From: Cupriavidus metallidurans CH34
GTDB lineage: Bacteria > Pseudomonadota > Gammaproteobacteria > Burkholderiales > Burkholderiaceae
Assembly (NCBI RefSeq): GCF_000196015.1
Contig: NC_007973.1
Span: 3,286,001 to 3,350,000, forward strand
Reading direction: 5' to 3'
DNA length: 64,000 nucleotides
Shown here: one piece after another, positions 3,398 to 19,277 of the stretch
Numbering within the stretch: the first letter of the stretch is position 1
Layout: every line of letters starts with the position of its first letter
Position numbers and translations under genes: made by a program
Notes under the pieces: generated by a model
The model's database searches: none
Seen by the model: only the letters and a program-made list of their open reading frames with translations
What the model was told of the DNA's origin: nothing

Positions 3398-3472
3398 GGT
3401 GAATCTCCAATCAAGTGAAACAAGGGAATGGAGGGGAAACCGCCCCTCCGGCGGGGAACACGTCAGAGGGGG

Positions 3473-4300
3473 TCAGGCCTTGAGGGCGCGCATGCCATCG
3501 GCCAGCAGCCACAGGGCGCGGTTCAGGCGAATGTCCGAATCAATGCCCTGCACGGGGCGGGTCTGCTGTCTGCGGCCATTGGCGGCGCGGCCATGCAATC
3601 CGCCCTTGGTCAGGTTCTCCTGCGTGCGGTTGAACACGCTCCACAGGTCGGGGCGGCGGTCGTCGAAGCGGCGCGGCATCAGGATTTGCGATTCCGTGAC
3701 GGGCGCGGGCTTGGTTGGGTCGTCGTACTTGAGGGCCAGCGCGGCGCGGGCGAACACTTCCGATTCCCCGGCATCCAGCGTGATGGCCTGCATGGATTCG
3801 CGCGATTCCTGCGCATGCTCGAAGCCGCTCAGCACCTGATAGGCGCCCTCGATGACATGGCCCGCCACGTCGCCCTTGTGGGGCACGCGCACATCGCCCA
3901 CGGTGTCGCCGCAGACAAGGCCATTGCTGCAAACGAAGCGGAACATGCCACCCAGTAATTGATAGCTGCTCGTGCCGTCGTGCGAGTTCAGCAGGATGAT
4001 TTCATTGGCTTCGCGGGCGTTGATCTGGTTGGCGTGGCGCAGGCGCAGCATGTGTTTCGTGTGCTCGCGCCGGCCCTCGTTGCGAACGCGGGTCTGGCAC
4101 ACCATGAAGGGCTGAAACCCCTCTTTGCGAAGCTCGGTCAGCACGGCGGCGGTGGGGATGTAGCTGTACCGCTCGGAACGGCTTTCATGGGGGGCATCCG
4201 CGAAGATGGACGGGGCCACGCGGCGGATCTGGTCATCGGACAGCGGGGAGTCGCTGCGCAATGCGGGGGAATGGGAAGCGAAGCGGGATGCGAGTTGCAT
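3473..4300 (-). CDS. DUF932 domain protein (phage/plasmid-related)
   Basis: A 275-residue protein of the DUF932 family common in ICEs and plasmids. Visible family features are RYSYIPTAAVL near the N-terminus, the central LRLRHAN and EIILLNSHDGTSSYQ segments, and FRFVCSNGLVCGD. The biochemical function is not known. The ATG at 4300 follows AGGAG; an in-frame extension to 4441 has no ribosome site and no family-like sequence. It sits 75 bases upstream of the parB-like gene in the same direction, so both are probably one backbone operon. Confidence 0.85.
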   Translation of the reverse strand: MQLASRFASHSPALRSDSPLSDDQIRRVAPSIFADAPHESRSERYSYIPTAAVLTELRKEGFQPFMVCQTRVRNEGRREHTKHMLRLRHANQINAREANEIILLNSHDGTSSYQLLGGMFRFVCSNGLVCGDTVGDVRVPHKGDVAGHVIEGAYQVLSGFEHAQESRESMQAITLDAGESEVFARAALALKYDDPTKPAPVTESQILMPRRFDDRRPDLWSVFNRTQENLTKGGLHGRAANGRRQQTRPVQGIDSDIRLNRALWLLADGMRALKA

Positions 4301-4866
4301 GGTCTTTCTCCTGAACAAAAAGGCTGTTGAAGAAAACCGCACACCGGATTCCAAGATTCGAAGCCCAGCCTTTCGGCTGTTCGGTGCGGTCGGCGCGAGG
4401 AACCCGGTTGGCCCTGTTGCCACCGTCTTTCCTGAGTTCATCGCCCGCGACGAAAGGGAGCGCGCGGACGGGGGCCGTCAAGGAAACAAGCGCAGGGTGG
4501 GGCGGCCCGCAGGCGCAGCCGAGGACACGGCCCTGCGCGCCTTGACGGCACACGGCCGCGGGCTACAGTCGCGGACAAGGTGATGAAGTCAGGGAAGAGG
4601 ACTGGACATGGCAACGGCCATCCCACAAGCCGACCGCACGGCAAGCGAAGCGCGCAGGCTCGAAGCTGGAAGCCGGGCCGGAGGCGTCAGCCGAACGGAG
4701 TGAGGGAACGATCGAAGCCCGAAGGGGGCGAGACGCCGCAGGCGGCTCGATGCGCTAGCACGAGAGCGCGACCGGCCATCTCCCAGGTGGCCGGGGACGC
4801 CCACATGACTTCAATGAAATCCCCGTGGACAGCTACCCACCCAGCCATCGGCAAAATGGCAATGGC
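4301..4866. other. gene-free ICE interval with repeat fragments
   Basis: No credible coding sequence. It holds the promoter region of the DUF932 gene and a GC-rich repeat (4642-4668, CAAGCGAAGCGCGCAGG) that recurs in slightly altered form at 6567-6592. Frames open here show no ribosome site or family-like protein sequence. Confidence 0.5.
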
Positions 4867-5088
4867 ATGGACATACGAGCCCTACAAGACGATGAACTGA
4901 TGGCCCAGGCCCGAGACTGGCGGCAACGGGCACTGCGCGGCGAGAAGGACGCACGCGGCCTCGCGCACGAACTGGAATGCGAAGTGCGCCGGCGCTTCCC
5001 CAGGAACAATGCGCCCCATGCACTGCCGCCGATCCAATTGCTCGGCGCCGTGCCGCAAACACCCCAGCGGCGCTGGAAGCCCTGGTAA
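4867..5088 (+). CDS. small conserved ICE protein (hypothetical)
   Basis: A 73-residue, mostly helical, charged protein (MDIRALQDDELMAQARDW followed by a basic RRRF stretch). Such short proteins recur beside DUF932/parB genes in Tn4371-like elements, which I recall rather than tested. The start is uncertain: ATG at 4867 matches the conserved-looking beginning, while a GTG at 4825 would add 14 residues; neither has a strong ribosome site. Function unknown. Confidence 0.55.
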   Translation: MDIRALQDDELMAQARDWRQRALRGEKDARGLAHELECEVRRRFPRNNAPHALPPIQLLGAVPQTPQRRWKPW

Positions 5089-5235
5089 GCACCGGCTCAA
5101 AGGCAGCCCGCCCGCATGACTGCGCCACGGCCGATCGGCGCTGATCCCGAAATCCCCCCGAAATAGCGCGAATTTCGAGTGGCCCGGTCACGGGCCAATG
5201 CCTACCGTGGAATCTCCACCTTCTGGAGAACCACC

Positions 5236-5535
5236 ATGAGCGATCCCATGCAACCCGGAACGCCTGCGCCTGGAGCAGAAGGGCCTGGCATCTTTCTGCC
5301 GACCCTCATCTGGACCACCGACCGCAAGACGGTAGGCAACGAGATGCAGCGCCTGCTGGGACGGCGCGCACAGCTCAACGTCCTGCTGTCCGCCTCCGAA
5401 GAAACGGACGACGGCACCACCTGGTACGCAATGGCCCAGGCCACGCTGAACCAGCTGGACTGCGATATCGAACGTCTCTTCGAGTGGCTGGGCGACTACG
5501 AACCCGACACACCCACGCCCGAAGTGCCATCGTAA
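5236..5535 (+). CDS. small acidic ICE protein (hypothetical)
   Basis: A 99-residue acidic protein. After a Pro-rich N-terminus it has a helical core (GNEMQRLLGRRAQLNVLLSA) and an ERLFEWLGDYEPD C-terminal part. The ATG at 5236 follows TGGAG at good spacing, so translation is likely. It has no signal peptide, membrane segment or catalytic motif that I recognise. It shares orientation with the preceding small gene. Confidence 0.65.
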   Translation: MSDPMQPGTPAPGAEGPGIFLPTLIWTTDRKTVGNEMQRLLGRRAQLNVLLSASEETDDGTTWYAMAQATLNQLDCDIERLFEWLGDYEPDTPTPEVPS

Positions 5536-5583
5536 TGTCCGGCATGAAGGGAGCGATCCGGCACCAGCCGGTTCGCTGCGCGA

Positions 5584-5677
5584 GAGGGGCGCCAAGCCTG
5601 CGCGGCGGGGATAGCCCGCAGGGCTTTCCCCTGGAGGCAAGCGCAGCGCGTAGCGCCCCGCCAGGGGCGCGAAGGCA
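5584..5677. repeat. ICE intergenic repeat, type A copy 2
   Basis: Second copy of the GC-rich segment seen at 195-283. Its left end carries GAGGGGCGCCAAGC and its right end GCGCGAAGGC; internal differences are small insertions. It fills the gap between two convergent small genes, where it could act as a structured terminator. Confidence 0.6.
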
Positions 5678-5956
5678 TCAGGCCGGGTCGTCGGGGCGCA
5701 GGCTGGCTTCCGACACCAGCATCCACGGCGATGACGAGTCCAGCAGGTAGCGCGCACCGCGCGCGTACAGGCCCGAAAGTCCGCTGGGACGATAAAACCC
5801 GGTGACGCGGCACCGGAACTGTGCGCCAAACCCGTTGGTATAGATCACCGCGTCGCCGAGCGCAAAGCGCAAGGGCTGGCCGTTCTCCGGTGGGAACGGC
5901 TTGAACGCATCATGCTCTGCCGTGATTTCGAGGATGTAGTCGTGGTGGCTGCTCAT
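5678..5956 (-). CDS. small conserved ICE protein (hypothetical)
   Basis: A 92-residue protein with alternating short strands (LRFALGDAVIYTNGFGAQF, then RVTGFYRP), suggesting a small beta-barrel or SH3-like fold; this is inference. The ATG at 5956 has a strong AGGAGG ribosome site. The stop touches the repeat at 5584-5677. It is downstream of the DUF2958 gene on the same strand, 63 bases away, and probably cotranscribed. Function unknown. Confidence 0.65.
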   Translation of the reverse strand: MSSHHDYILEITAEHDAFKPFPPENGQPLRFALGDAVIYTNGFGAQFRCRVTGFYRPSGLSGLYARGARYLLDSSSPWMLVSEASLRPDDPA

Positions 5957-6019
5957 GGCCTTGACCTCCTGAAATGATTGAGAACGCTCAGGAGCGCCTT
6001 GCGGCGCCCCAGAACCAGG

Positions 6020-6370
6020 TCAGACAACGACACGCCCCGCCAGCCGCGCATCGCGCGCATAGGCGCTCAGCCGCTTCTCGGCACGAAAGTGCAGATCCCG
6101 CTCTACCGGCAAGCCCAGCCGCCCGCGCACGGTCGCCAGTTCGGAAAGACTGACCCAGCCGATTTCCGGCATCCCTAGGCCCAGGTCGCAAAGACCGAAG
6201 GCGTGATCGTGGTCATCGGGATCAATCTCGGTCAGCAGCCAGGTCGCGCCGGCATCCGGCGTGAACAGCTTGACCACTGGGGCCGGATCGAAGTCCGGGT
6301 TCTCCAAGGATTCGCGGCCGTTGGCCAGCAGCACGATGCGCTGCTCGTCCGTGATGAATGCGTGGTTCAT
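6020..6370 (-). CDS. DUF2958 domain protein
   Basis: A 116-residue protein matching the DUF2958 pattern: an N-terminal LLANGRESLENPDFDPAPVV, a TWLLTEIDPDD strand, and FGLCDLGLGMPEIGWVSL in the second half. This family is common on ICEs and plasmids beside DUF932 and ParB genes; its function is unknown. The ATG at 6370 is preceded by AGGAG. An upstream in-frame extension is possible but lacks support. Confidence 0.82.
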   Translation of the reverse strand: MNHAFITDEQRIVLLANGRESLENPDFDPAPVVKLFTPDAGATWLLTEIDPDDHDHAFGLCDLGLGMPEIGWVSLSELATVRGRLGLPVERDLHFRAEKRLSAYARDARLAGRVVV

Positions 6371-6746
6371 GGTGAACTCCTGTAAGGTTACCGGGCGGAA
6401 TTGCCCAGCCCTTGCAGGGCACGGCGCAGCGCAAGCAGTCAAAGATCGAAGACGGCCGCCAGGCCGCAAGCGCCGAAGGTGCGCAGTCATTGACGGCGAG
6501 CACGCCGTGGCACGATGAAGGGAACAGCAAGCCGCCACACCTCACCACGCAGCCACCCCGGTATTGACAAGCGTAGCGCGCAGGTCCGAAGCGTCAGTCC
6601 AGATCAGAGCGTCCGGGCTTGAAGCCGGATGACTGCGATTCGGCACGAAGCTCGGGGCGCAGCCCATGAGCCCGACGAAGGAACGTCGGGATGCAGGCCA
6701 AGTTGTCAGCAGGCAGTTGAAAAGTGGTGCTGGCCTTCAGGCGCTG
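6371..6746. other. gene-free junction between ICE backbone and cargo
   Basis: No coding sequence supported. It holds the upstream region of the DUF2958 gene and repeat fragments at 6567-6592 and 6619-6674. G+C falls visibly to its right, so this is probably where the cargo insertion begins. Confidence 0.45.
6619..6674. repeat. ICE intergenic repeat, type B copy 2
   Basis: Carries TTGAAGCCG, CGGCAC and GGGGCGCAGCCC followed by AGCCCG in the same order as at 292-350. It sits immediately before the low-G+C cargo block. Confidence 0.5.
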
Positions 6747-7010
6747 TCAATTTTCTTGATCTTCCGGATACGCCGCCTGGGGAATCGGCACCCAGCCATC
6801 GCGGGTGATGCCTGCCCCGATGCGTATGTTCTGGCTTTCAGTTGCCGCCCAGTGCCCACCCCGGTGCAATACGGCGCGAATCACCGACTTCCGCGGATGA
6901 TCCTCATCCGCCTTGGCAGAACTGCATATGGCATTCCAATGGTGCTTGTCCGGCATACTGTTCAACCGTGGGCCGAGCAGTTGATCCAAGACTTCGGTCG
7001 AAACGTTGTG
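6747..7010 (-). pseudogene. C-terminal part of MBL-fold hydrolase behind an in-frame TGA
   Basis: These 88 codons, including the final stop, are in the same frame as the MBL gene at 7011-7817 and continue its protein sequence across the TGA at 7011-7013. The part begins HNVSTEVLDQLLG and includes DEDHPRKSVIRA and RDGWVPIP, typical of the C-terminal part of ComEC-like MBL hydrolases. No further stop interrupts it. The simplest reading is a recent nonsense mutation (CGA to TGA or TCA to TGA). Leaky readthrough is possible because the stop is followed by C, a weak termination context. A sequencing error cannot be excluded. Confidence 0.75.
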
Positions 7011-7817
7011 TCACCCGCCGTGATGGGGCACTTGGAAATACCGAATACCTGGCAGCGCGAGTCCCACGAAAGGTGCGTAGTCGATCACCTCCTGCAGTGC
7101 TTCACGCCCGGCATCGCCAGTAAGCATGACGCGATGACCGTTCAAGACAGCCGACTGCACCACACTCATTTCATTCTCACGACTGGTCGGCTCAGGCGGG
7201 AAATATTCCTCGCCCCACAGGGACTTGATGTAGGCGGTCGCGGCCTTCACTGCCCGGAATATGCTGCTCAGCGCGCTATCAAAAGCACTTTCTTCGACAG
7301 CTTCCGGTGTCTTCGCGGAGTCCACGATCAGGTCCAAGTAGCGCCCCAGGGTAGGTGCCATGACCGCGAACGGACCGATGCTCTGCCCCTGAAGGGGGGC
7401 ATGGATTGGAATTCCCTTCTCCACCGCAATATCCTCAAGAATTGCCGTGGCATCGTAGATTGAGCGCAACTTCCGTCGCAGGGCTTCAACCGATTCATAG
7501 GTCTCAAAGCGATCGATCAACTGGTCCGCGTATATCCACGGCCGGTTGATCCAAAGATTCCTGACCGTGCATTGCTCCAGGACTTTTCGTAGTCCGTTGG
7601 CGTGATCGCGATCTGGGTGCGTGAGGATCACATGGTCGATGACTGTTGTTCCATAGTACGTCTTCAGATGCTCGACTATCTGATCACCCGTATCCAGATA
7701 CCCACCGTCAACAACGTGCACGCCCTCGGTGCCATTCACCGAGTAGCGCAGCGTGATCGCGTCCCCGCTTTTCGCTGTTTCGACGCCAAGAAAGTCGATC
7801 TCGAAGTAGTCAGCCAT
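7011..7817 (-). CDS. MBL-fold metallo-hydrolase, truncated by in-frame TGA
   Basis: A 268-residue metallo-beta-lactamase-fold protein of the ComEC/Rec2-like group, expected to be a metal-dependent hydrolase. The metal site is visible: THPDRDH (His67, Asp69, Asp71, His72), LTGD later, and PHHGG at the very end. All metal ligands therefore precede the stop, but the C-terminal part typical of the family is cut off (see 6747-7010). I chose ATG 7817, with a GAGGG site, over GTG 7862, which abuts the stop of the fusion gene. It is the third gene of the MBL/E2-E1-JAB operon, 45 bases after it. Confidence 0.8.
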   Translation of the reverse strand: MADYFEIDFLGVETAKSGDAITLRYSVNGTEGVHVVDGGYLDTGDQIVEHLKTYYGTTVIDHVILTHPDRDHANGLRKVLEQCTVRNLWINRPWIYADQLIDRFETYESVEALRRKLRSIYDATAILEDIAVEKGIPIHAPLQGQSIGPFAVMAPTLGRYLDLIVDSAKTPEAVEESAFDSALSSIFRAVKAATAYIKSLWGEEYFPPEPTSRENEMSVVQSAVLNGHRVMLTGDAGREALQEVIDYAPFVGLALPGIRYFQVPHHGG

Positions 7818-7862
7818 ACATCCCTCTTGTTTTATGCCAACAAAGTGCCGGTGGCTTTGCAC

Positions 7863-10118
7863 CTACCAGCGATCCACCGCACACGTGAGTCCTGTCGGAG
7901 TCCATACCAACGACACGGCCGGAAGGCCGCCAGCATCCTCGGCGATGCCGCGCAATGTATTTCGGTCGATACCCGAATGTGCGCCGCCTTTCGGGTGGCT
8001 GTGCCACGTTCCTATAAAGGCGAGATACCCCAAAGAGGCCGCGTTTGCGGCGCGCAAATTTTGAACAAGCCCGTTGGTTCCGAGGACGAAGCGGGCGGCC
8101 TCTCGAACACTGTCAGGCGGTGCCTCAACAAGGCCTGCAATGGTGATGGTTCGATTTTCAAACGAGATGCGGCCGATCAAGGCGCCGCCTGTTTCCAGAG
8201 CACCCCAGCGCAGCGCATCAGCATGGATTGCTTGCGCAACTGGGGACAGGACCCGAATGTTCCAGCCACCATCGTCTGCGACTTCAAGCGCAGTGGTCGG
8301 GCCAAGGCTGGCGCGGGTCCATGCCATTCCAAGGCCTTCGGCATCTGAGATTCCGGCGCAAAGCGTCGCTTCCTTCGGAAGCCCATCAACGAGCCATCGT
8401 TCCAGTTGCAGGCCGGCCAGTGACGTCGACCGCGAAACAACGGCGTCAGACATAGGCATCGTCAGCGAATGACAGTTGTCACCCACGAAAATCCGAGTCG
8501 GCTCAGACGTCTCGCCGGCAATCGACGCACGCAGTTCCGGTGCAAACCGGCAGCACTCGAACAAGAACGCCGTGAGGTCGTCAACTCGGCCGGCACGGCC
8601 AGCTCCTTCGAGCAATACCGCCACACAGCGCCCCTGACCATACATCGCGATCCGTGCCAATCGGGCTGGGGATTGATCCAACGCTGCCGATTGTGTTTCT
8701 GCAGCCAGCACCTGAAGTGACGCCGTCGCATCCACGATGAGGGCCGCATCCTGCGGAACGGTTGCCGCAAACTGTTCCGGATCGACCAAAAGAGTCACTG
8801 CGTCGGTGTCGAACGCTCGCGATTGAAGATGCGACAGCGATTCAAAGGCTGTCTTCATCAGCGCCGACTTCCGAGGCGGAACCAGAACTGATGCCCGCTC
8901 AATGAGTGCATGCCGCGCGGCGTTGTGAGGCGACATGGGTTCGTTGTCGACGAAAGTCATCGAACCAAAGCCCGCTCGCCCCAGTTGCATCGCGACTTTC
9001 GATCCCACGCTTCCGCAGCCGAGCACGACCAGCGGCTGTGATGTGGCTGCGTATGGAATGCCGGACGTCCTTGCCAGCAGTTCAGGAGACAACGCATGCG
9101 CGTGAAAGGCCGGGTGAACCGTGGCGTTACGCTCCAGGAGCGATTGAGCGTTGAGTTCATAGCGCACCACATAGGGCAATACCTCGACACTCCTCCCTGG
9201 CGAGCCCACAAGCGACGCTGGCCTTTGCACAGCCAGAATCACAATCGCGTACAAACCATGCACCCAGCCATGCGAGTCCTGTCGCATATCCAGGATTGAG
9301 CGTCCGAAATAACCGTCCACTTCCTGGGCCAAAGCGTCGCGATCAATACCAAGCTCCGCTGCTCGATCGAGCAGCGTCGCGAGATCGACAACTGTCTCTG
9401 GTTGATAGCGTCCGATCACATGCGGGAGGCCGTCGGTCATCGGAGCGCGCGCGATGAAGGCCGCGGCATGGCCGTTCCCCCATTTGCCCAGCTTGTCGTT
9501 GTGAACATCCTGATAAAACACAGGATCGACTTGTGCGGTCAGTTCGGCGTTGATGATGGCGTACAGACCGCCATCGATCGTCACGTAGCCTGCGGGAACC
9601 ACCAGAATCGTGCCGTCAGCGGGAGCGGCGGCCGCGACCTTCTCGGCACTGAATACAACGGTCGAAGGACAGCTGTCTCGGCGCGTTGGTTCCCACCCCT
9701 GCTCCAGGTCCAGGAGTGTTCCGGCCGCGGCCTTGTGCAGCCAGTCGATCAACTGATCGACAACGGCGTCCAGGCCAAACCGATGCAGCAGCTCGTTCAA
9801 CGACCCTTCGAATAGGCACGGCGAGACTAACTCGCCTTGGCGATGGGGGTTGATGTGCGGCAAGTTGAGCGGGAAGTCCGCACGTAAGAAGGGCTCGGGT
9901 GCAGACAGGGGCCAGTCACTACCGAATACCAGCACGCACGTCTCGACGGTGCGCACTCCGGTCTCAGAGATACCATTGCGCCGAGACCTGTTCGGCAGTT
10001 GGACCGCAACATCGACTTCAATCTCCGTCGATGCACCAGTTGTCCTTGGCTCGCCAACGCGGATAAGGCCTCGATGCCGCTGAAGTTGATGCAGTGCGTC
10101 TGCGATGGTGCCCGTCAT
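7863..10118 (-). CDS. E2-E1(ThiF)-JAB triple-fusion ubiquitin-like conjugation protein
   Basis: A 751-residue protein joining three parts of a ubiquitin-like pathway. Residues about 1-130 are E2-like: a LPHIN motif (86-90) precedes the likely catalytic Cys101 in SPCL. Residues about 360-560 are E1/ThiF-like with the nucleotide loop GCGSVG (367-372), Asp391 and a basic NAARH segment; the E1 cysteine is not certain (Cys521, Cys522 or Cys549). Residues about 635-751 are a JAB/JAMM metalloprotease with Glu642, His706, His708, Ser715 and Asp718. One polypeptide could thus activate, transfer and remove a modifier. The start ATG overlaps the stop of the upstream MBL gene (ATGA). No ubiquitin-like gene is visible beside it. 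Related fusions with MBL genes were described by Iyer, Burroughs and Aravind. Confidence 0.88.
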   Translation of the reverse strand: MTGTIADALHQLQRHRGLIRVGEPRTTGASTEIEVDVAVQLPNRSRRNGISETGVRTVETCVLVFGSDWPLSAPEPFLRADFPLNLPHINPHRQGELVSPCLFEGSLNELLHRFGLDAVVDQLIDWLHKAAAGTLLDLEQGWEPTRRDSCPSTVVFSAEKVAAAAPADGTILVVPAGYVTIDGGLYAIINAELTAQVDPVFYQDVHNDKLGKWGNGHAAAFIARAPMTDGLPHVIGRYQPETVVDLATLLDRAAELGIDRDALAQEVDGYFGRSILDMRQDSHGWVHGLYAIVILAVQRPASLVGSPGRSVEVLPYVVRYELNAQSLLERNATVHPAFHAHALSPELLARTSGIPYAATSQPLVVLGCGSVGSKVAMQLGRAGFGSMTFVDNEPMSPHNAARHALIERASVLVPPRKSALMKTAFESLSHLQSRAFDTDAVTLLVDPEQFAATVPQDAALIVDATASLQVLAAETQSAALDQSPARLARIAMYGQGRCVAVLLEGAGRAGRVDDLTAFLFECCRFAPELRASIAGETSEPTRIFVGDNCHSLTMPMSDAVVSRSTSLAGLQLERWLVDGLPKEATLCAGISDAEGLGMAWTRASLGPTTALEVADDGGWNIRVLSPVAQAIHADALRWGALETGGALIGRISFENRTITIAGLVEAPPDSVREAARFVLGTNGLVQNLRAANAASLGYLAFIGTWHSHPKGGAHSGIDRNTLRGIAEDAGGLPAVSLVWTPTGLTCAVDRW

Positions 10119-11308
10119 GATGCTCCGTGCGGCATGGGGGTGCGCGCAGAGGTCACCACGGCAGCGGCCTTCGATCCGGACTCCTTCTTCGAGGGAGGTT
10201 GCACACCCTGAGCGGTTACGGTGAAAACGAGCGGTTCCACGGACTTTTCGCTGGGGTACTCGCCTGTGCAGTAGAACTCGCCTTTTGCTTCGTCCACGAT
10301 CGTCACGTACTCACGCTTCGCACGGATGCAGGGCGGATCGCTGTCATCATCTGCAATCGGCTTGCAGCTGGCGACGATGACGGCGCCGTCACGGGTCTGC
10401 GAAAGCGCCTTGCGAGCATCAGCATCGAGCTTGGCTTTTTCACGGTAGTCGGACCAGCTGTCATAGGACAGCGAATGCCAGGAACAATGATGAGGCGCCT
10501 GCATGATGTCGTACTCAAGCACATCTGCTTCAGCCTTGTGGCGTTGCCACTGGCGGTTCCAGATGAACACCTCAGCATCGCCACCAGTAAGGAATTTCGC
10601 ACCATCCGGCGTCTGCGCGTCAGCCGCCAACGTGATGTTCAGAATAACGCTGGACTGGTTCTTGACCAGGCACTCTTCCTCTTCCTCGTCATCCTGGGCG
10701 TCCAGTGGAGCCAAAAGAAACGCAGAAAAGAATGCGGAACTCTTGCCATTGATCGTTGAAAAGCGCGTGTCCACCTTCCGCACAATCGAAGTGAGATCAT
10801 CGGTTTTTCCGTCGATGTCCTCGCCCATGATCTGAATGCGGTCACCGTTCCCGACGGCGAAATTCTTGTCACGGTTCAGTTGCACGCGCCGACGCGCCTC
10901 CGTGTTGAATGCCTTGGCGTCGTCGCTCAAGGTGTGCGTCTTGCTGGCGCGTCGAAACACGATCGGGGACGACCACATCTCGCGGATCACGATTTTCTTG
11001 TCCTTGTCGTCCTTCTTGTCGTCCGGGTACTTGTCGAGTGGCCCTAGGTAGAAGTGTCGCTTCAACCCTCGGCAATGGTCTTGATCCGGGTGGCTCAGCA
11101 GGAACGCATCGACATACGGCCTGCCGTTCTCATCCTTCTTCAGTCGTTCGCGCAAATCCTTGGCGACATCGCGCGCCTCCCCGTCAGGGTCGTCGGCGTC
11201 TTGCCTGATGTTTACGTCGATCAGCAGAGTCGTCGCGTCGAGATCGCCGAACTTGATGAGGGTCATGTCCCCGTTGTCGACGGGAAAAAACGTGATGGTT
11301 GTAGGCAC
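10115..11308 (-). CDS. MBL-fold metallo-hydrolase, first gene of the conjugation operon
   Basis: A 397-residue metallo-beta-lactamase-fold protein. The metal site is complete: SHPDQDH with His73, Asp75, Asp77 and His78; LTGGD with Asp244; APHHCSWHS with His273. A highly charged insertion (about residues 92-105) and an acidic run (about 206-212) set it apart from the other MBL protein of the operon, so the two are not recent duplicates. The GTG start at 11308 has GGAG upstream. The stop overlaps the start of the E2-E1-JAB gene. The substrate is unknown; a nuclease or cyclic-nucleotide hydrolase role is possible but not shown. Confidence 0.85.
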   Translation of the reverse strand: MPTTITFFPVDNGDMTLIKFGDLDATTLLIDVNIRQDADDPDGEARDVAKDLRERLKKDENGRPYVDAFLLSHPDQDHCRGLKRHFYLGPLDKYPDDKKDDKDKKIVIREMWSSPIVFRRASKTHTLSDDAKAFNTEARRRVQLNRDKNFAVGNGDRIQIMGEDIDGKTDDLTSIVRKVDTRFSTINGKSSAFFSAFLLAPLDAQDDEEEEECLVKNQSSVILNITLAADAQTPDGAKFLTGGDAEVFIWNRQWQRHKAEADVLEYDIMQAPHHCSWHSLSYDSWSDYREKAKLDADARKALSQTRDGAVIVASCKPIADDDSDPPCIRAKREYVTIVDEAKGEFYCTGEYPSEKSVEPLVFTVTAQGVQPPSKKESGSKAAAVVTSARTPMPHGAS

Positions 11309-11397
11309 TGGGGTCTCCGGGTAGACGACCGAAGGATGATCGCGTATAGTTAATGTACGACGATTTTTTATATCCGTCTACTTTTTAGGCGTGACTA
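11309..11397. promoter_or_regulatory. divergent promoter region with inverted repeat GTAGACG/CGTCTAC
   Basis: This 89-base AT-richer interval separates the MBL operon from the divergent WYL regulator. GTAGACG (11321-11327) and CGTCTAC (11375-11381) form a widely spaced inverted repeat, and a third related block (GTACGACG) lies between them. BrxR/CapW regulators bind inverted repeats in the promoters of their defence operons, so this is a candidate operator. The spacing is larger than usual for one dimer, so the assignment is tentative. Confidence 0.45.
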
Positions 11398-12300
11398 ATG
11401 CAAAAACCTTCCGTTCCTGCCGCCGAACCTGCTGAGCCTAAGGGGCTAAGTTGGGGGCTGGAGAGCAGACTTCAATTCATCGATTTCCGTCTGCGCTGGG
11501 AGCGGCGCATCAACCGGATGGATCTCACCGAGCACTTTGGTATTTCGGTCCCGCAGGCATCGCTGGACATTTCCAAGTACATGGAGTTGGCGCCGAGCAA
11601 CCTGACTTACGACCGCAGCTCCAAGACCTACACGGCAGCGCAGAGTTTTCACCCGCTTTACCAACGAAGCTCGGCGCAACGCTATCTAGCAGAACTGCTA
11701 GCGACAAAGATGGGAATTGTCGAGCCGACGGCCAGCTTCATCGGCTCCGCGCCGGAGACAGATTGGGCCCCGTCCCCTTGGCGCACGATCAATGAGCAGA
11801 CCGTCGAAGCAGTGGTGCGCGCAATCCGCCAGCAGGAATCCATTCTGGTGAGCTACCAGTCCATGACGTCGTTGGATGAATCGGTTCGCTTGCTGTCTCC
11901 CCACGCCCTTGGCAATGACGGTTTTCGCTGGCACATGCGCGCGTTTTGCCACAAGCGCCAGCGCTTCAGCGATTTCGTCCTTGCTCGAATCCTGCGCATC
12001 GATGGCTTCGAGGCGACCCAAGTGGACGCCAACCAAGATTCGCATTGGCAAACTGTATTGACGCTGGTACTTGCACCGCATCCCGATTTGCCTGCAGCCA
12101 AGAAACGAGTCTTAGAGTTGGACTACGGCATGGAAGATGGAGAGGTCAAACTTCCATGCCGCCAAGCGTTTCTGTACTACACGCTGAGACGTTTGGGTTT
12201 GCATACCAAGGAAGCACCAGACCCCCTCGCACAGCAGATCACGCTAAAAAACCGCGATGAAATCCAACCCTATATCGACGCCTTGGCGGCACAGGCCTGA
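11398..12300 (+). CDS. WYL-domain transcriptional regulator (BrxR/CapW-like)
   Basis: A 300-residue protein with a winged helix-turn-helix at about 15-85 (RLQFIDFRLRWERRINRMDL, then FGISVPQASLDISKY), a WYL domain at about 135-205 (ILVSYQSM, LSPHALGNDGFRWHMRAF) and a C-terminal WCX-like domain to the end. This order fits BrxR/CapW repressors, which sit beside BREX, CBASS and other defence systems and release their promoters on infection or DNA-damage signals. It diverges from the MBL/E2-E1-JAB operon and probably controls it. The next gene follows after 6 bases. The ATG at 11398 has only a weak ribosome site. Confidence 0.85.
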   Translation: MQKPSVPAAEPAEPKGLSWGLESRLQFIDFRLRWERRINRMDLTEHFGISVPQASLDISKYMELAPSNLTYDRSSKTYTAAQSFHPLYQRSSAQRYLAELLATKMGIVEPTASFIGSAPETDWAPSPWRTINEQTVEAVVRAIRQQESILVSYQSMTSLDESVRLLSPHALGNDGFRWHMRAFCHKRQRFSDFVLARILRIDGFEATQVDANQDSHWQTVLTLVLAPHPDLPAAKKRVLELDYGMEDGEVKLPCRQAFLYYTLRRLGLHTKEAPDPLAQQITLKNRDEIQPYIDALAAQA

Positions 12301-12306
12301 CTTCAC

Positions 12307-13095
12307 ATGACAACAATTTTTGAACTGGTCAAAGACCCCTACGAGCGCAAGGCACGTGTTATCCCTGGCCTTCTTGTGGCCTTACCCGTGCTGGTGCCGC
12401 TGTTGTGCGTCTACGGGGCTCGGCACCCTGTGCTTACAGGTGTGATCGGCCTGCTGGGCGGCTGCGGCGCTATCTATGCACTCGCGAGCGTAGCGCGCGG
12501 ACGTGGTAAAAAACTTGAAGAGATGCTGGTCTCAAAATGGGGTGGCATGCCCACGACCATCGCACTACGCCACCGCGACAAGTTCCTTGATGGTGTCAGC
12601 AAGCAGCGTTATCACACGGCGATCACTGCCAAGTTGGGTATCGCCATGCCAACGGCAGAAGAAGAATCAGCAAACCCAGACAAGGCAGACGACATCTACA
12701 TCGGTGCCACTAAGCGGCTTCGCGAACTCACGCGTTCCAACAAGCAGCTCTTGCTGAAAGAGAACATCGCCTATGGATTTCATCGCAACATGCTGGCGAT
12801 GAAGCCTGTCGGTATCCTGTCGTGCCTCATGGGCGTCGTCTACGGATTGTTGATTGCAAAGATTTTGCAGGTAGCACCTCTCCAATTTGACTTGGTGCAC
12901 CTTGCCGATCCAGGGCTTGCCGCAGGCTTGACATTGCTCATTTCGCTGGCGCTACTTGCCGCATGGCTACTGTATTTCGATCAGGACGCAGTAAGGCGGA
13001 TGGGATTCGTCTATGCGGAACGTTTGTTTGAATGTTTGCCGTCGTTGCCTTCTTCCTCCTCACGGAAGAAAGCCGTAAAACCGACTACAGACTGA
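12307..13095 (+). CDS. four-helix membrane protein of unknown function beside WYL regulator
   Basis: A 262-residue protein with two N-terminal membrane segments (about 19-37 and 42-63), a soluble middle region of about 100 residues, and two C-terminal segments (about 168-187 and 203-224). The middle ends in a conserved-looking motif, ENIAYGFHRN (152-161). I do not recognise the family. It starts 6 bases after the WYL stop without a clear ribosome site, implying translational coupling. Its place in a defence-like locus suggests a membrane effector or sensor; this is inference from context only. Confidence 0.75.
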   Translation: MTTIFELVKDPYERKARVIPGLLVALPVLVPLLCVYGARHPVLTGVIGLLGGCGAIYALASVARGRGKKLEEMLVSKWGGMPTTIALRHRDKFLDGVSKQRYHTAITAKLGIAMPTAEEESANPDKADDIYIGATKRLRELTRSNKQLLLKENIAYGFHRNMLAMKPVGILSCLMGVVYGLLIAKILQVAPLQFDLVHLADPGLAAGLTLLISLALLAAWLLYFDQDAVRRMGFVYAERLFECLPSLPSSSSRKKAVKPTTD

Positions 13096-13140
13096 GGTTC
13101 TGCCCAATCTCCAAACAGGCGTATAGCTCCGCAGGTGTGT

Positions 13141-14277
13141 CTACCGCTTCCACGTCTTGGGACGAATCGTTCCGCGAGACTCCAGCAAGAGCCGCGTGCT
13201 TTCCAGTTCCTTTTGCAGCACATCGGTATCCGGCAGAACCATCCGGTAGTTCGCCGCCATGACCTTGGTGGGTAAGCCCTCCAGCGCATACCGCGCCAGG
13301 GCGAGCCCCTTGTCGGCACAAAGAATCAGCCCCACCGGCGGGTTCTCCTCGGGATAGGCCCAGTGTTCCTTGGCATAGTTGCAGTACATGTGCATCTGGC
13401 CCACGTCCGCATGCGTCAGACTCCCCAGCTTCAGGTCGATGATGACCAGGCAGCGTAACTTGCGATGGAACAGCAGCAAGTCCACCCGATACCAGGTCTG
13501 GTCGATGCGCAAGCGCCGCTGCCGTCCAATGAAGGTGAACCCTTCACCCAATTCGAGCAGGAAGTCTTCCAGCCGCCGGATCAAGGCGGCCTCCAGATCG
13601 GACTCCGAATACTCGTCCTTGAGGTCGAGGAACTCCAGCACATAGGGGTCTTTGATGGCATCGCCGGGCGCGACGGCATCTTCGGGCTTGGCCACCGCGC
13701 CCTTGGCCAGCATCGCCGCCTTGTTTTTCGACAGCGCCGTGCGCTCGTAGAACTGGCTGCCGATCTGCCGATCCAACTGGCGCACGCTCCAGCCGCCGCG
13801 CAAGGCCTCGGCTTCATAGAACTGGCGCGCATGCTCGTCCTTGACCGACAACAGCCGCACATAGGCCGACCACGGCAGCGTGAAGACCTGCGCCAGCTCG
13901 TCCAGCCGCCAAGGCCGCACTGGCTCCGGGGAAGATTCGCCAGACACTGTCTGGCGAATTGGCCGGGTCAGAAAAAACGACCGCATCTGCTGCAGGTTCT
14001 GACGGCTGAAGCCACGGCCGAACTGCTGGGTGAGGTCGCTTGCCAGCCGCTCGATCAACTGCTCGCCATAACCCGCGCGCCGCTTGCCCTGTTGCTCGGC
14101 CTCCACGATGCGGCGGCCAATCTCCCAGTAGCTGGCCGTCATCAGCGCATTGACGCTGCGCGCTGCCGTCTGGCGCGCGGCATCGAGCAGATCCACGATG
14201 CCGCCGTGGATGCCGGCGTAGCCGGCAGGCACGGCGGCGGGTGCGACTCCCGCCATCGCAGGCGCCTTCTTGGTCAT
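13141..14277 (-). CDS. DUF1016 family (YhcG-like) PD-(D/E)XK nuclease protein
   Basis: A 378-residue protein of the YhcG/DUF1016 family. The N-terminal domain (about 20-160) has YWEIGRRIVEAEQQG and GFSRQNLQQMR. The C-terminal part (about 205-350) carries the nuclease-like core YRVDLLLFHRKLRCLVIIDL, whose acidic residue and later IDLK fit a PD-(D/E)XK fold. The true start is the ATG at 14277, which overlaps the integrase stop (ATGA); longer frames only run into the integrase. A perfect palindrome at 13935-13959 is embedded in frame. The biological role is unsettled; a link to mobile elements is common. Confidence 0.85.
   Translation of the reverse strand: MTKKAPAMAGVAPAAVPAGYAGIHGGIVDLLDAARQTAARSVNALMTASYWEIGRRIVEAEQQGKRRAGYGEQLIERLASDLTQQFGRGFSRQNLQQMRSFFLTRPIRQTVSGESSPEPVRPWRLDELAQVFTLPWSAYVRLLSVKDEHARQFYEAEALRGGWSVRQLDRQIGSQFYERTALSKNKAAMLAKGAVAKPEDAVAPGDAIKDPYVLEFLDLKDEYSESDLEAALIRRLEDFLLELGEGFTFIGRQRRLRIDQTWYRVDLLLFHRKLRCLVIIDLKLGSLTHADVGQMHMYCNYAKEHWAYPEENPPVGLILCADKGLALARYALEGLPTKVMAANYRMVLPDTDVLQKELESTRLLLESRGTIRPKTWKR
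13935..13959. repeat. perfect 12-bp palindrome inside the DUF1016 gene
   Basis: ATTCGCCAGACA (13935-13946) and TGTCTGGCGAAT (13948-13959) are exact reverse complements around one base. It encodes part of IRQTVSGESS in the DUF1016 frame, so it is translated without breaking the gene. Confidence 0.9.
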
Positions 14278-15473
14278 GCAGCCACCTCCGCAGGCCGCTG
14301 CGCCTCGGTGATCGTCTTGCGCCGGTTCGCCACCAGCTCGGCCGCCTTGCGCACCGGATCGTCCTCGGTGTGGACGTAGCGCATGAACATCGCCACGGTC
14401 TTGTGCGCCGTCAGCGCCATGCCGACCTTGACCGGGATGCCCGAGTTGGCAATGTCGGTCGCGGAGCGGTGGCGGATGCCATGCGTGCCGACGTGCGTGG
14501 CGCCCGCCGCCTTGAGGGCGCGGCTCCAGCCGCCGTAATACTCGCCCGTGGTCAGGTGCTTGCCGGGATGGCTTGGAGACGGCAGCACATAGGGAGTGCC
14601 TTCCTGCCGTGGCGCCGTCGAGAGCAGTCGATAGGCTTCCTCGCTCATGGGCTTGGACATGCCGCCCGTCTTGCTGTCCGGCCAGACCACGCGGCGGTTG
14701 TCCAGGTCCACCCAATCCCATCGGAGCGTCACGATTTCGGAGCGGCGGCCGGCGAACTCGAATTGAAGGCGGATCGCCAGCGGGATGACGTAGTTCTCCA
14801 GACCCTCGGCTTCGATGTGCTCCAGTCGCCGAAACAGCTTGCCCATGTCCTCGTCGCTGATGAGGTGGGTGGCCTTGCCGTTGGGGTACATCGGGACGTG
14901 GCGGCAGGGGTTGGTGCCGTCAGGCCGGTGGCCCCACACCTCGGCCAGGTTGAACATCTTGCGCATCACGCTGAAAGCACGGTTGGCCTCGGCCGGCTTG
15001 TGCGCCATCTTCTTCATCGCCGTGGCCACGTCCGGGCGCTTCACGTCCTGGACCTTCAAACGGCCCAGCATCGGAACGATGCAGCGGTCGATGACGGCCT
15101 GATACCCGCGCTGGGTGCTGGGCTTGTTGCGCTGCTTGGAGTAATCCTCCATGAACTTGGTACACAGCTCCTTGACCGTGGGGGCTGAACGGGCGGCGGC
15201 CTTGGCCGCGCTGGGGTCGCCGCCCCGGCGCACCTCGGCCAGCCATTCCTGGGCCAGCGAGCGGGCCTGCTCGACGGTCAGTTCCCCGTACAGGCCCAGG
15301 GCGGGCTTGCGCCGCTCGCCAGCGTTCGTGCGGTACTGGAGCATGAACACCTTGCGGCCCGCTGGTGTAACCTTGCACAGGAAGCCGGGCACCAGCGTGT
15401 CCCGGAGTTCGACGGCCTGCGCCTGGGGTTGTGCCGCATCGACTGCGGACTTGGTGAGCTTGAGTTTTGCCAC
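14274..15473 (-). CDS. int: Tn4371-type ICE integrase (tyrosine recombinase)
   Basis: A 399-residue site-specific recombinase that would integrate and excise the element. The N-terminal arm-binding part begins VAKLKLTKSAVDAAQPQ, a SAM-like core-binding region follows at about 95-185, and the catalytic domain holds the first Arg (FAGRRSEIVTLRW), HGIRHRSAT (His-x-x-Arg) and the Tyr in TAHKTVAMFMRYVH. I place the start at GTG 15473, which has GAGGAG five bases upstream; an in-frame extension to 15623 lacks a ribosome site. The stop overlaps the DUF1016 start. It lies about 175 bases from the candidate core site and points into the element. Confidence 0.9.
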   Translation of the reverse strand: MAKLKLTKSAVDAAQPQAQAVELRDTLVPGFLCKVTPAGRKVFMLQYRTNAGERRKPALGLYGELTVEQARSLAQEWLAEVRRGGDPSAAKAAARSAPTVKELCTKFMEDYSKQRNKPSTQRGYQAVIDRCIVPMLGRLKVQDVKRPDVATAMKKMAHKPAEANRAFSVMRKMFNLAEVWGHRPDGTNPCRHVPMYPNGKATHLISDEDMGKLFRRLEHIEAEGLENYVIPLAIRLQFEFAGRRSEIVTLRWDWVDLDNRRVVWPDSKTGGMSKPMSEEAYRLLSTAPRQEGTPYVLPSPSHPGKHLTTGEYYGGWSRALKAAGATHVGTHGIRHRSATDIANSGIPVKVGMALTAHKTVAMFMRYVHTEDDPVRKAAELVANRRKTITEAQRPAEVAA

Positions 15474-15648
15474 GATGACTCCTCGGAAAGACCCGATTCC
15501 CAAGAGCCATGTAGGGGCCATCAGAGGGGAAGCCGGGTCAGGTTTCGGAAAGCACCGGCATATGTTGGACTCGCCTAAGTTATTGATAAACCTGCTGTAT
15601 CGGGCTTCGGCGTAGTCCAGCAAAGTTCGGTGCTGGAGTCATGGTGAA

Positions 15649-15656
15649 ATGAAAAA
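15649..15656 (-). other. candidate ICE attachment core (attL/attR), TTTTTCAT
   Basis: The minus strand reads TTTTTCAT, the 8-base direct repeat I recall being reported at the ends of Tn4371. It lies about 175 bases behind the integrase start and inside the T-tract of the maeB terminator. The matching repeat at the other end would be to the left of this window. Confidence 0.65.
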
Positions 15657-15679
15657 AGCCGGGCGAACCCGGCTTTTTT
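15652..15679 (-). terminator. intrinsic terminator of maeB
   Basis: AGCCGGG and CCCGGCT enclose a CGAA loop, with six A's on the left and six T's on the right, so it could work in both directions. It sits 36 bases after the maeB stop and its T-tract contains the candidate ICE core site. Confidence 0.88.
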
Positions 15680-15715: not shown

Positions 15716-18040
15716 TCAGACCTTGGCTGCCGCGTCCACGACCACCAGCGCGGTCATATTGACGATACGGCGCACCGTTGCCGAAGGCGTCAGGATATGG
15801 ACCGGCGCCTTCACGCCCAGCAGGATCGGGCCGATCGCCACGTTGTTGCCAGCCGCCACCTTGAGCAGGTTGTACGAGATGTTGGCGGCATCGATGTTCG
15901 GGCACACGAGCAGATTGGCTTCGCCCTTGAGCGCGCTGTCCGGCACCAGCGAATCGCGCAGCTTTTCGTCGAGCGCGCTGTCGCCATGCATTTCGCCATC
16001 CACCTCGAGGTCCGGCGCGCGGTCGCGCAGGATCTTCAGCGTGTCGCGCATCTTGCGTGCCGACGGCGCTTCCGACGTACCGAAGTTCGAGTGCGACAGC
16101 AGACCCACCTTCGGCTCGATACCGAAACGCTTGAGCTCCTCCGCAGCCATGATCGTGATCTCGGCCAGTTGCTCGGCGGTGGGATCGACGTTGACGTGCG
16201 TGTCCACCAGGAAGATCTGGCGGCCGGGCAGAACCAGACCGTTCATTGCGGCGTACACGCAATTTGTGCCACCGATGACCTGGTCGATATAGCGCAGGTG
16301 GGCGGCGGTGGTGCTAACCGTACCGCAGATCATGCCGTCGGCTTCGCCCTTCTCGACCAGCATCGCGCCGATCAGCGTGGTACGGCGGCGCATTTCCAGC
16401 TTGGCGTACTGCGGCGTGATGCCTTCACGCGCCATCATGCGGTAGTACGCGTCCGAGTATTCGCGGAAACGCTCGTCGTGCTCTGGGTTCACCACCGTGA
16501 AGTCCTCGCCCATGCGCAGGCGCAGGCCGAAACGCTCGATGCGGTGAGCCAGCACGGCCGGGCGGCCGATCAGGATCGGGTTGGCCAGCTTCTCGTCGAC
16601 GATCACCTGCACCGCACGCAGCACGCGCTCTTCCTCGCCCTCGGCGAAGACGATGCGCTTCTTCTCCTTCTGCACCTTGCGGGCGGCCGCGTAGATCGGC
16701 TTCATCAGCGTACCCGAGTGGTACACGAACTGCTGCAATTGCAGACGGTACGCGTCCATGTCCTCGATCGGGCGCGATGCCACGCCCGATTTGGCGGCGG
16801 CCTCGGCCACGGCCGGGGCGATCTTGACGATCAGGCGCGGATCGAACGGCTTCGGAATCAGGTATTCGGGGCCGAACGACAGGTCCTGGATGCCATAGGC
16901 CGACGCGACGATATCGCTCTGCTCCTGGCGCGCCAGCTCCGCCACCGCGTTTGCCGCGGCGATTTCCATTTCACGCGTGATCGTCGTGGCGCCGCAATCG
17001 AGCGCGCCACGGAAGATGAACGGGAAGCAGAGGACGTTGTTGACCTGGTTCGGATAGTCGGTGCGGCCCGTGGCGATCACGGCGTCCGGACGGACTTCCT
17101 TGACCAGTTCCGGCATGATTTCCGGATTCGGGTTGGCCAGTGCCATCACCAGCGGCTTGTCGGCCATCTTCTGCACCATCTCGGGCTTCAGCACGCCCGC
17201 AGCGGACAGGCCCAGGAAAATGTCGGCGCCTTCGATGACCTCGGCCAGCTTGCGCTTGTCGGTCTTCTGCGAGAAGCGCGCCTTTTCCGGGTCCATCAGT
17301 TCGGTACGGCCTTCGTAGACCACGCCGGCCAGGTCCGTCACCCAGATGTTCTCGATGGGCAGGCCCAGGTCGACGAGCAGGTCCAGGCAGGCCAGCGCGG
17401 CGGCGCCGGCGCCCGAGGCCACCAGCTTCACCTTCGAGATGTCCTTGCCCACCACCTGCATGCCGTTGATCACGGCGGCGCCCACGACGATCGCGGTACC
17501 GTGCTGGTCATCGTGGAAGACGGGGATCTTCATCCGCTCGCGCAGCTTGCGCTCCACGTAGAAGCACTCCGGCGCCTTGATGTCCTCGAGGTTGATACCG
17601 CCGAACGTCGGCTCGAGCGAGGCGATGATGTCGACCAGCTTCTCGGGGTCTTTCTCGTCGACTTCGATATCGAACACATCGATACCGGCGAACTTCTTGA
17701 ACAGGCCGGCCTTGCCTTCCATCACCGGCTTCGACGCGGCCGCGCCGATATCGCCCAGACCCAGCACGGCGGTGCCGTTGGTGATCACGGCCACCAGGTT
17801 GCCACGCGCCGTGTAGCGGAACGAATTGGCCTGGTTGGCCACGATTTCCTCACACGCTGCCGCCACACCCGGCGAATAGGCCAGAGCCAGGTCGCGCTGG
17901 TTCGACAGCGGCTTGGTCGGGGTGACCGAGATCTTTCCGGGGGTGGGAAACTCGTGGTACTCGAGCGCGGCCTTGCGCAGCGCCTCACGCTGCTGCTGTT
18001 TCAGATCGTCTTGGGACGGGGACTGCTGAGGGCTTGTCAT
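15716..18040 (-). CDS. maeB: NADP-dependent malic enzyme with phosphotransacetylase-like domain
   Basis: A 774-residue cytoplasmic enzyme that converts malate to pyruvate and CO2, supplying NADPH. The malic enzyme part covers about residues 15-430 ([52 protein letters not shown]). The C-terminal part, about 440-774, resembles phosphotransacetylase and is usually regulatory in MaeB-type enzymes. The length is normal for the type. I chose ATG 18040 ([10 protein letters not shown]) with a GGAAG site; the open frame upstream to 18301 is non-homologous. It diverges from thiL across a region with a perfect palindrome. Confidence 0.95.
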
Positions 18041-18154
18041 CTGCGCATCTTCCGATCGGTGGAGCCGCACTGAATAACGCTGGCGATTGAGCGCGGGCCG
18101 GCTCCACGAACCCGCTGTCTCCGCTGTAGGCGCTTTTGGAAGTGTGCATTTTAT

Positions 18155-18177
18155 ATTGTGAAATAGTATTTCACAAT
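18155..18177. promoter_or_regulatory. perfect AT-rich palindrome between maeB and thiL (operator candidate)
   Basis: ATTGTGAAATA (18155-18165) and TATTTCACAAT (18167-18177) are exact inverted repeats around a single G. It lies about 115 bases before maeB and 123 before thiL. The AT-rich sequence stands out from its surroundings and resembles a dimeric regulator site. A TACAAT -10-like box at 18211-18216 could serve thiL. Confidence 0.75.
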
Positions 18178-18299
18178 AAGCCTTTTGTTTGGGGCACCTT
18201 TGCGTTTCGGTACAATATGCCCCATGCCGATGGGCTTTACCAGCCGAGTCTCCAGCAGAATTTCCGCGGCATGTTTCCTCCCAGGTTCCCCGCCCCGTC

Positions 18300-19277
18300 A
18301 TGCCCGAATCCTCCCCCGCGCTTTCCGAGTTTGACCTGATCCGACGCTATTTCACGCGCCCGGTCCACAAGGCCGCGCTGGGCGTGGGCGATGACTGCGC
18401 GCTGATCGAGGCGCGGCCGGGCCACCAGCTCGCCATCAGCACCGACATGCTGGTCAGCGGTCGGCACTTTTTCCCGGACGTTTCACCGCGCGCGCTGGGC
18501 CACAAGGCCCTGGCCGTGAACCTGTCCGATCTGGCGGCAATGGGCGCCGAACCCCGCGCATTCACGCTGGCGCTGGCGCTGCCCGAGGCGGATGCCGGCT
18601 GGCTTGCCGAATTCGCGGCCGGCATGTTGGCGCTGGCCGACGACCACGGCTGCGAACTGATCGGCGGCGACACCACCAAGGGTCCGCTGACGCTGTCGAT
18701 CACGGTGTTCGGCGACGTGCCCCCGCGTCAGGCGCTGCGGCGCGACGCGGCGCGCCCCGGCGACGATATCTGGATCTCCGGCACGCTCGGGGACGCGCGC
18801 CTGGCCCTGGGCGACTGCCGCGGCGAATGGCTGCTGCCCGAGCCCGACTTCACACTGATCCGTCCCCGGATGGAAATGCCGACGCCCCGCGTGGCGCTGG
18901 GCCTGGCACTGCGCGGCGTGGCTCATGCGGCACTCGACATTTCGGACGGGCTGATCGGCGATCTCGGTCATATCCTTGAACGCTCATCGGTCGGCGCAAT
19001 TGTCGATGTCGATGCCTTGCCGCGCTCGGAGATTCTTGACGCCCAGCCGGAGGAATGCCAGCGCGCCTGCGTGCTGGCCGGTGGCGACGACTACGAACTC
19101 TGTTTCACGGCGCCGGTGGGCGCGCGCGAAACCATTGCCGGCATCGCGCGCCGGCTTCACCTGCCGCTCACGCATGTCGGATCCATCACACCGGAGGCGG
19201 GCCTGCGGCTGGTGGATCGCGAAGGCAATCCCTACGTGTTCAAGGGCGCCTCGTTCGATCATTTCGCCGCGCCCTGA
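18300..19277 (+). CDS. thiL: thiamine-monophosphate kinase
   Basis: A 325-residue ATP-dependent kinase that phosphorylates thiamine monophosphate to thiamine diphosphate, the last step of cofactor synthesis. Typical motifs are FDLIRRYF near the N-terminus, the acidic metal site GVGDDCA, STDMLVSGRHF, LSDLAAMGA, IGGDTTKGP and the late DISDGL. The start ATG at 18300 (MPESSPALS) fits the family; the frame is open further upstream without support. It begins a co-directional group with pgpA and pncC. Confidence 0.95.
   Translation: MPESSPALSEFDLIRRYFTRPVHKAALGVGDDCALIEARPGHQLAISTDMLVSGRHFFPDVSPRALGHKALAVNLSDLAAMGAEPRAFTLALALPEADAGWLAEFAAGMLALADDHGCELIGGDTTKGPLTLSITVFGDVPPRQALRRDAARPGDDIWISGTLGDARLALGDCRGEWLLPEPDFTLIRPRMEMPTPRVALGLALRGVAHAALDISDGLIGDLGHILERSSVGAIVDVDALPRSEILDAQPEECQRACVLAGGDDYELCFTAPVGARETIAGIARRLHLPLTHVGSITPEAGLRLVDREGNPYVFKGASFDHFAAP

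Follow-up and report, generated by a model that had tools for sequence, protein, structure and literature searches.

An extended 6A-MBL operon in Cupriavidus metallidurans CH34 with a glycine-tailed metallo-beta-lactamase, a CapW-like regulator and an exchangeable membrane module

What does a bacterial E2-E1-JAB protein conjugate when no ubiquitin-like protein is apparent in its operon? The question is raised by positions 6747–13095 of a 64,000-nucleotide stretch of the Cupriavidus metallidurans CH34 genome (contig NC_007973.1, positions 3,286,001 to 3,350,000; hereafter the window, to whose first base all unlabeled coordinates refer), where such a protein is encoded together with two metallo-beta-lactamase-fold (MBL) proteins, a WYL regulator and a membrane protein. 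An initial annotation of the DNA had proposed these five genes as a ubiquitin-like defense system that may be undescribed. We consider it reasonably probable that the locus is an extended form of the operon that NCBIfam names the anti-phage 6A-MBL system, that is, a CapW-controlled conjugation system working much as type II CBASS (cyclic-oligonucleotide-based antiphage signaling system) does, but with an MBL enzyme standing in for cGAS and with a plug-in membrane module. A more specific proposal, to which we give about an even chance, is that this MBL-fold hydrolase is itself the modifier, trimmed by the E2-E1-JAB protein and conjugated by it through its C-terminal glycine during infection, and that this drives a membrane module which moves between operons as a unit and consists of a membrane protein or a patatin, in many cases accompanied by a second MBL.

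The core of the locus consists of two genes on the reverse strand. One (7863–10118) encodes the fusion, a Cap2-Cap3-like protein of 751 amino acids, and the other (10115–11308) encodes a ComEC-like MBL-fold protein of 397 amino acids, which we call MBL2. Pfam finds Prok-E2_A (7.1e-62), ThiF (2.6e-11) and Prok-JAB (1.4e-11) in the fusion, with the E2 domain at 9624–10106, the E1 domain from 9032 and the JAB domain at 7911–8243, all on the reverse strand. Against NCBIfam NF058523 (6A-MBL_cap2_3; cut-off 320 bits) the fusion reaches 550.7 bits, and against NF058524 (6A-MBL_enzyme; cut-off 220 bits) MBL2 reaches 445.7 bits; a fusion over 320 bits thus adjoins an MBL-fold protein over 220 bits, as the 6A-MBL sequence definition has it. 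The same pairing appears in row 6a of Iyer 2006 (PMC1779556), where a triple-module E2-E1-JAB protein is “almost always next to a metallo-beta-lactamase” in an organization described as simple and mostly of two genes. The “6A” of the NCBI name presumably refers to this row, to judge from name and content. The term “6A-MBL” was not found in the papers searched, and “anti-phage” is used here as part of the NCBIfam family name. The core belongs to a family already described, of which the extended operon is a variant. The suggestion that the system may be undescribed can therefore hold for the extended layout only, in which the two-gene operon of row 6a is joined by a membrane protein, a CapW-like regulator and a further MBL, additions that relatives swap.

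Our neighborhood survey covers 56 loci (labeled L with a number), of which 41 were found with peptide patterns of near relatives, and so form a biased sample, and 15 lie in other genomes that exceed the NCBIfam cut-off in samples of the class, the phylum and the order. Fusions over the cut-off are present in 7 of 369 class, 6 of 398 phylum and 5 of 399 order genomes, the samples overlapping and each including this genome. Catalytic columns were aligned for the window and 54 of the loci, L042 and L099 being omitted because their fusion frames are too short. E2 His88 and Cys101 (codon 9816–9818), the E1 glycine loop (367, 369, 372), Asp391, Arg402, Lys417 and Cys549 (codon 8472–8474), and JAB Glu642 are invariant in all 55 fusions, and JAB His706, His708, Ser715 and Asp718 in all 54 rows that are ungapped there. 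Five of these residues (Cys101, Glu642, His706, His708 and Asp718) had been named in the initial annotation, and all five are where it placed them. Three features go beyond it: Cys549, which its conservation points to as the putative catalytic cysteine of E1, the C-terminal glycine of MBL2, and an operator-like palindrome.

It is the end of MBL2 that suggests an answer to the question of substrate. Residues 376–397 (10118–10183) form a disordered tail in the AlphaFold2 model (predicted local distance difference test, pLDDT, below 50; whole-model mean 86.6), in which a conserved glycine, Gly395 (codon 10124–10126), has two residues after it. Among 120 close homologues listed, 109 are pattern-complete, and in every one of these the last glycine lies 0–6 residues from the C-terminus, followed by no residue in 37, one in 7, two in 62, three in 2 and six in 1; one of the 109, ending in ..REAGS and without the PHG motif, has probably been truncated. 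Eleven homologues fall outside the pattern: eight terminate in HG, with or without two further residues, P0188 has a tail that is atypical, and P0162 and P0227 lack a tail. A distant clade (profile A2) has 119 pattern-complete members among 120 listed, and 116 of the 119 terminate exactly in glycine; two of the other three have a glycine one or two residues before the end, and one has none in its last 15 residues. The single member outside the pattern also terminates in glycine. These homologues are not independent, clustering at 80% leaving 30 groups in the close clade and 6 in the distant one; glycine is among the last four residues in every one of these groups. Glycine alone is common to the tails of the two clades (..PMPHG versus ..PPRAG). 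Among unique C-termini of the locus set, 26 of 28 from MBL2 have a glycine in one of the last four positions, as compared to 23 of 91 for five other families (8/26 fusions, 4/21 CapW, 3/23 for the membrane protein MEM, and 2/10 and 6/11 for two kinds of second MBL, MBL1 and c29) and 79 of 282 unrelated open reading frames.

A tail of this kind is known from type II CBASS. According to Jenson 2023 (PMC10097602), the cGAS enzymes of Cap2 and Cap3 operons have a conserved terminal glycine or alanine with variable penultimate residues, only where both Cap2 and Cap3 are present; Cap2 covalently conjugates cGAS and Cap3 cleaves. MBL2 is probably the conjugated protein, because its glycine tail is the same mark as that on the conjugated cGAS, and the JAB domain could remove the residues after the MBL2 glycine. 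The terminal or near-terminal glycine is thus a mark of the type II CBASS kind, and it speaks for a likeness of working and not for membership. The two are alike also in their E1, E2 and JAB activities (here predicted), in patatin-type effectors and in CapW control; they differ in that an MBL enzyme stands here for cGAS, that E2, E1 and JAB form a single chain, and that 1–6 residues often follow the glycine. Pfam, PADLOC and NCBIfam gave no match to a CD-NTase or cGAS in the operon, four of whose genes belong to other families and the fifth of which encodes a membrane protein. Bil and Bub systems likewise have ubiquitin-like conjugation machinery and encode a ubiquitin-like protein, whereas no gene for one was found within the operons here. 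The MBL2 and fusion frames share four bases (10115–10118), so that there is no room for a small ubiquitin-like gene between them, and MBL1 comes directly after the fusion; neither operon has an internal gap, and no operon gene has a Pfam match to such a protein, the flanks not having been searched for one.

The remaining genes of the extended layout are MBL1, which ends the reverse-strand operon, and two on the forward strand: the WYL regulator (11398–12300; 300 amino acids), divergent from MBL2, and MEM (12307–13095; 262 amino acids), which starts 6 bp past the regulator and which we propose as the effector. The fusion, MBL2, the regulator and the membrane protein stand where the initial annotation had put them, and only MBL1 (6747–7862) is not the one open frame that it described. 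For gene counts, 54 loci were clustered at 90% fusion identity into 28 lineages and presence was scored on the longest-flanked member of each; several contigs are short, and the counts are lower bounds. MBL2 is present in 27 lineages and the regulator in 17; 16 have MEM, and 15 have a second MBL (16 if L033 of the L046 cluster is counted). The annotation had staked its grouping on the fusion not being found mostly without the other four genes; over the 56 loci, co-occurrence is common among near relatives and is not universal.

MEM has four hydrophobic segments (residues 18–36, 42–60, 168–186 and 204–222), two plus two around a soluble middle, and is all-helical in its AlphaFold2 model (pLDDT 81.7). 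Residues invariant across 14 sequences include Asp10, Tyr12, Arg17, Arg64, Lys99, Glu120, Tyr156, Gly157, Arg160 and Asn161. In the 12 lineages from which MEM is absent, inspection of the neighbors found a second membrane family (TM-B, with two to four hydrophobic segments on a simple scale) in five (L039, L040, L089, L094 and L096), other membrane proteins near the core in two (L038 and L095), and patatin-like phospholipases directly beside the core in two more (L088:10394–11614 and L097:9115–10290; Pfam 5.5e-19 and 2.5e-16, respectively), an arrangement that recalls the CapV operons of CBASS. No membrane-directed neighbor was identified in L043, L087 and L090, in a search that was not exhaustive. 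A membrane protein or patatin therefore accompanies the core in 25 of the 28 lineages, and all 15–16 lineages with a second MBL belong to these 25.

The second MBLs fall into two distant kinds, MBL1-like and c29-like. MBL1-like proteins accompany fusions at least 83% identical to that of the window, with the exception of L098 and the addition of L091. MBL1 matches PDLC04676 of the PADLOC candidate PDC-M48B, and the two c29 MBLs tested match PDLC04674; in contrast to that candidate, the gene is tied here to a 6A-MBL core. Among the 369 class genomes, four have MBL1-family genes, namely this one and G032, G154 and G155, the last three all without a fusion over the cut-off; PDLC04674 is found in one (G200), which has a fusion. 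PADLOC also matches both MBLs of the window to LmuA, the MBL effector of Lamassu (MBL1, 1.8e-15; MBL2, 2.2e-12); its SMC partner LmuB was not among the hits of the ten proteins scanned, two of which were seen with their best 25 families only.

The clearest case of exchange is L098. Its proteins are close to those of the window (CapW 88%, MBL2 97% and fusion 92% identical), and it carries a TM-B protein and a c29 MBL beside CapW in place of MEM and MBL1. A single stretch of DNA homology (87.7%) corresponds to window positions 7825–12334, reaching 28 bases into MEM at one end and, at the other, stopping 8 bases short of the likely MBL1 start codon, an ATG at 7817. In the genomes that lack a fusion over the cut-off, two of three MBL1-family genes adjoin a gene for a membrane protein: a 170-amino-acid protein with three hydrophobic segments in L109 (1367–2954) and TM-B in L111 (6421–8265); the gene in L110 does not. 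Since it is swapped in L098 and stands alone in L109 and L111, the pair of membrane protein and second MBL behaves as a cassette. Its position, its replacement by patatin and the parallel with CBASS suggest that this cassette would be the effector of the 6A-MBL system. The glycine tail of MBL2, the recurrence of a second MBL and a membrane-directed neighbor, and their exchange are what is new here. By eye, the two-gene unit of L111 lies beside apparent type I restriction-modification genes.

The WYL protein is CapW-like, as judged from its closest matches among solved structures, which are CapW proteins covering nearly its full length (7tb5, E 4.6e-73, residues 14–293 of 300; 7tb6, 3.1e-72; 9c5g, 2.4e-54), with BrxR (7t8k, 7e-43) behind them. 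The 89 bp between the divergent operons hold an imperfect, operator-like palindrome of 17 bp (11343–11359) and, around the same dyad center at 11351, the outer arms GTAGACG (11321–11327) and CGTCTAC (11375–11381). The palindrome overlaps a sigma-70-like −10 hexamer (11345–11350) of the forward-strand CapW-MEM operon, part of a 9-of-12 promoter match that is the only one in the region, on the CapW side, where 0.1 would be expected. CBASS CapW is described as binding palindromes of 19–24 bp at the −10 element (Blankenchip 2022, PMC9122588); the targets treated there are CBASS or BREX, and here the target would be a 6A-MBL operon. The outer arms are seen in the closest loci. By eye, the palindrome pattern is not kept in the CapW-bearing loci L036, L037 and L039, and an automated repeat search reported no inverted repeat. 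Divergent layout and symmetry suggest that CapW controls the MBL2 operon as well. An association with CapW or with CapH plus CapP has been reported for 219 of 544 Bub operons (PMC13373217). Upstream of the CapW-less core of L043 lie a GHKL ATPase gene (Pfam HATPase_c) and a 195-amino-acid gene (L043:6084–7543), which resemble the capK-capS pair of that report.

Taken together, these features can be read as a working system. By analogy with its CBASS counterpart, CapW bound to the palindrome would silence both divergent operons, and infection or DNA damage would release it. MBL2, a ComEC-like and presumably metal-dependent hydrolase, would then present a flexible tail of ..PHG plus 0–6 residues, from which JAB would trim the extras. 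E1 would adenylate the MBL2 glycine and take MBL2 on Cys549, and E2 would receive it on Cys101, so that MBL2 could be attached covalently to target proteins or lipids with no encoded ubiquitin-like protein, JAB also reversing the attachment. Attachment would localize or activate MBL2, and killing or growth arrest would come about via the exchangeable membrane module, here MEM and the second MBL. Conjugation, trimming, trigger and the module as output are the steps that we infer. If they are right, conjugation by non-ubiquitin enzymes would be a general principle and not a CBASS specialty. A trait of the type II CBASS enzyme would recur in an unrelated enzyme family, the 20-year-old 6a operons would gain a mechanism with named residues (Cys549, Cys101, Gly395 and Glu642), and the exchangeable module would offer a route to the effectors of 6A-MBL systems.

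Several observations weigh against this account. Neither Pfam, PADLOC nor fold comparison gives MEM a match of weight, S-4TM/SLATT and other known transmembrane effectors included. CapW was not found in 11 of 28 lineages. Of the 15 genome-sample loci taken alone, L099 and L089 among them being cut by contig ends, 12 have MBL2 and 12 a membrane-directed neighbor, but only 4 have CapW and only 7 a second MBL. Two loci (L086 and L087) have a 6A-MBL fusion and no MBL2 gene; by eye, an MBL2-like tail fragment stands in frame ahead of the fusion in L086. An interrupted MBL1, free-standing cassettes and glycine-terminal c29 proteins add to these, and each bears on a particular alternative.

The initial annotation had read 6747–7862 as an intact MBL gene, and in this assembly an in-frame TGA (7011–7013), just past the HHGG motif, cuts it; the search of the class genomes likewise counts one TGA inside the gene. 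On the reverse strand, an N-terminal piece of 283 amino acids (7011–7862; 391 bits) covers positions 1–268 of the 357 in PDLC04676, and a C-terminal remnant in unchanged frame past the stop (6747–6989; 87.5 bits) covers positions 277–357, in order. Because the stop interrupts its second MBL, the operon of this isolate may retain only part of its function. That it is decaying, with full function lost, is a tentative possibility that we would not put first, and one compatible with the conjugation account. Twenty-eight loci are readable at the site, and only that of this genome has the stop; broken members occur elsewhere (MBL1 in L016 and L026, MEM in L027 and L030, and the fusion in L042). The site is open in the other 27, so that copies of MBL1 without the TGA exist (the region is missing from L016, and L026 is intact here and broken at another place). 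In L007, from Xenophilus azovorans, all five genes are open. In this isolate the core genes and MEM are open, the TGA may be an assembly error, and there are lineages in which no second MBL was found at all.

A second alternative separates what we have joined. The conjugation core would defend alone, MBL2 acting at once as modifier and as nuclease-like effector; the membrane protein and second MBL would be a distinct two-gene defense or toxin unit (a PADLOC candidate, PDC-M48-like) that shares the CapW promoter region. The free-standing pairs of L109 and L111, whose genomes have no fusion over the cut-off, are what this would predict, and the cassette is possibly a passenger; a second MBL was not found in 12–13 of the 28 lineages, and the row 6a operons are described as mostly two-gene (Iyer 2006, PMC1779556). 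We nevertheless think this alternative unlikely, as several unrelated kinds of membrane-directed gene, patatin included, recur near the core in nearly all lineages and MEM is encoded within 6 bp of CapW.

It is less likely still, although worth stating, that the conjugated protein is the second MBL or a host protein and that the MBL2 glycine tail serves otherwise, for instance in binding. MBL2 is not alone in showing the tail signal: 4 of 11 unique c29 C-termini are exactly glycine-terminal, three of the four with the pattern TExxG. However, only 1 of 10 MBL1 C-termini ends in glycine, second MBLs are often absent where MBL2 is nearly always present, and MBL2, the one MBL that was modeled, ends in a long disordered tail whose last residues are conserved. 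A sulfur-carrier or metabolic role of the E1/JAB machinery, in place of defense, is very improbable: E1 and JAB domains do occur in siderophore- and sulfur-metabolism operons (Iyer 2006, PMC1779556), but here they are joined to an E2 with a conserved cysteine, a CapW-like regulator and an anti-phage NCBIfam name, in a locus of patchy presence found on plasmids and mobile elements.

The mobile context, together with the family name and the regulator, also supports the defense reading of the initial annotation. An integrase (Pfam) adjoins the locus, and the element recurs almost unchanged across genera. Over window positions 1–15658, identity with Bordetella ansorpii (L008) is 99.97%; over roughly that span it is 99.93% with Xenophilus azovorans (L007), 99.90% with Achromobacter pulmonis (L012) and 99.2% with Azospirillum sp. 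B21 (L013). Given identities of 99.2–99.97% across these genera, the element appears to have spread between them recently. Its homology stops at about 15656–15666, beside a frame (15716–18301) that by eye is malic-enzyme-like. The fusion is found in 27 plasmid records at E 1e-60, and twelve Acinetobacter plasmids (H1–H12) carry it at about 90% identity; in phage records, MBL2 was not found at E 1e-20.

On the other side, 6.6–9.0 kb left of the first base of the window, is a protein with DUF3363 (1e-148; L100:11026–13371), which we take to be a relaxase-associated domain. It is accompanied in L100 by an AcrB-type efflux pump, and in L101 by a Tn3 transposase and a gene for TniQ. To the right of MEM, a YhcG/DUF1016 nuclease frame (PADLOC PDC-S02; 13141–14721) and a tyrosine integrase frame (14274–15623) overlap by more than 400 bases, and the true start of the nuclease is probably further in.

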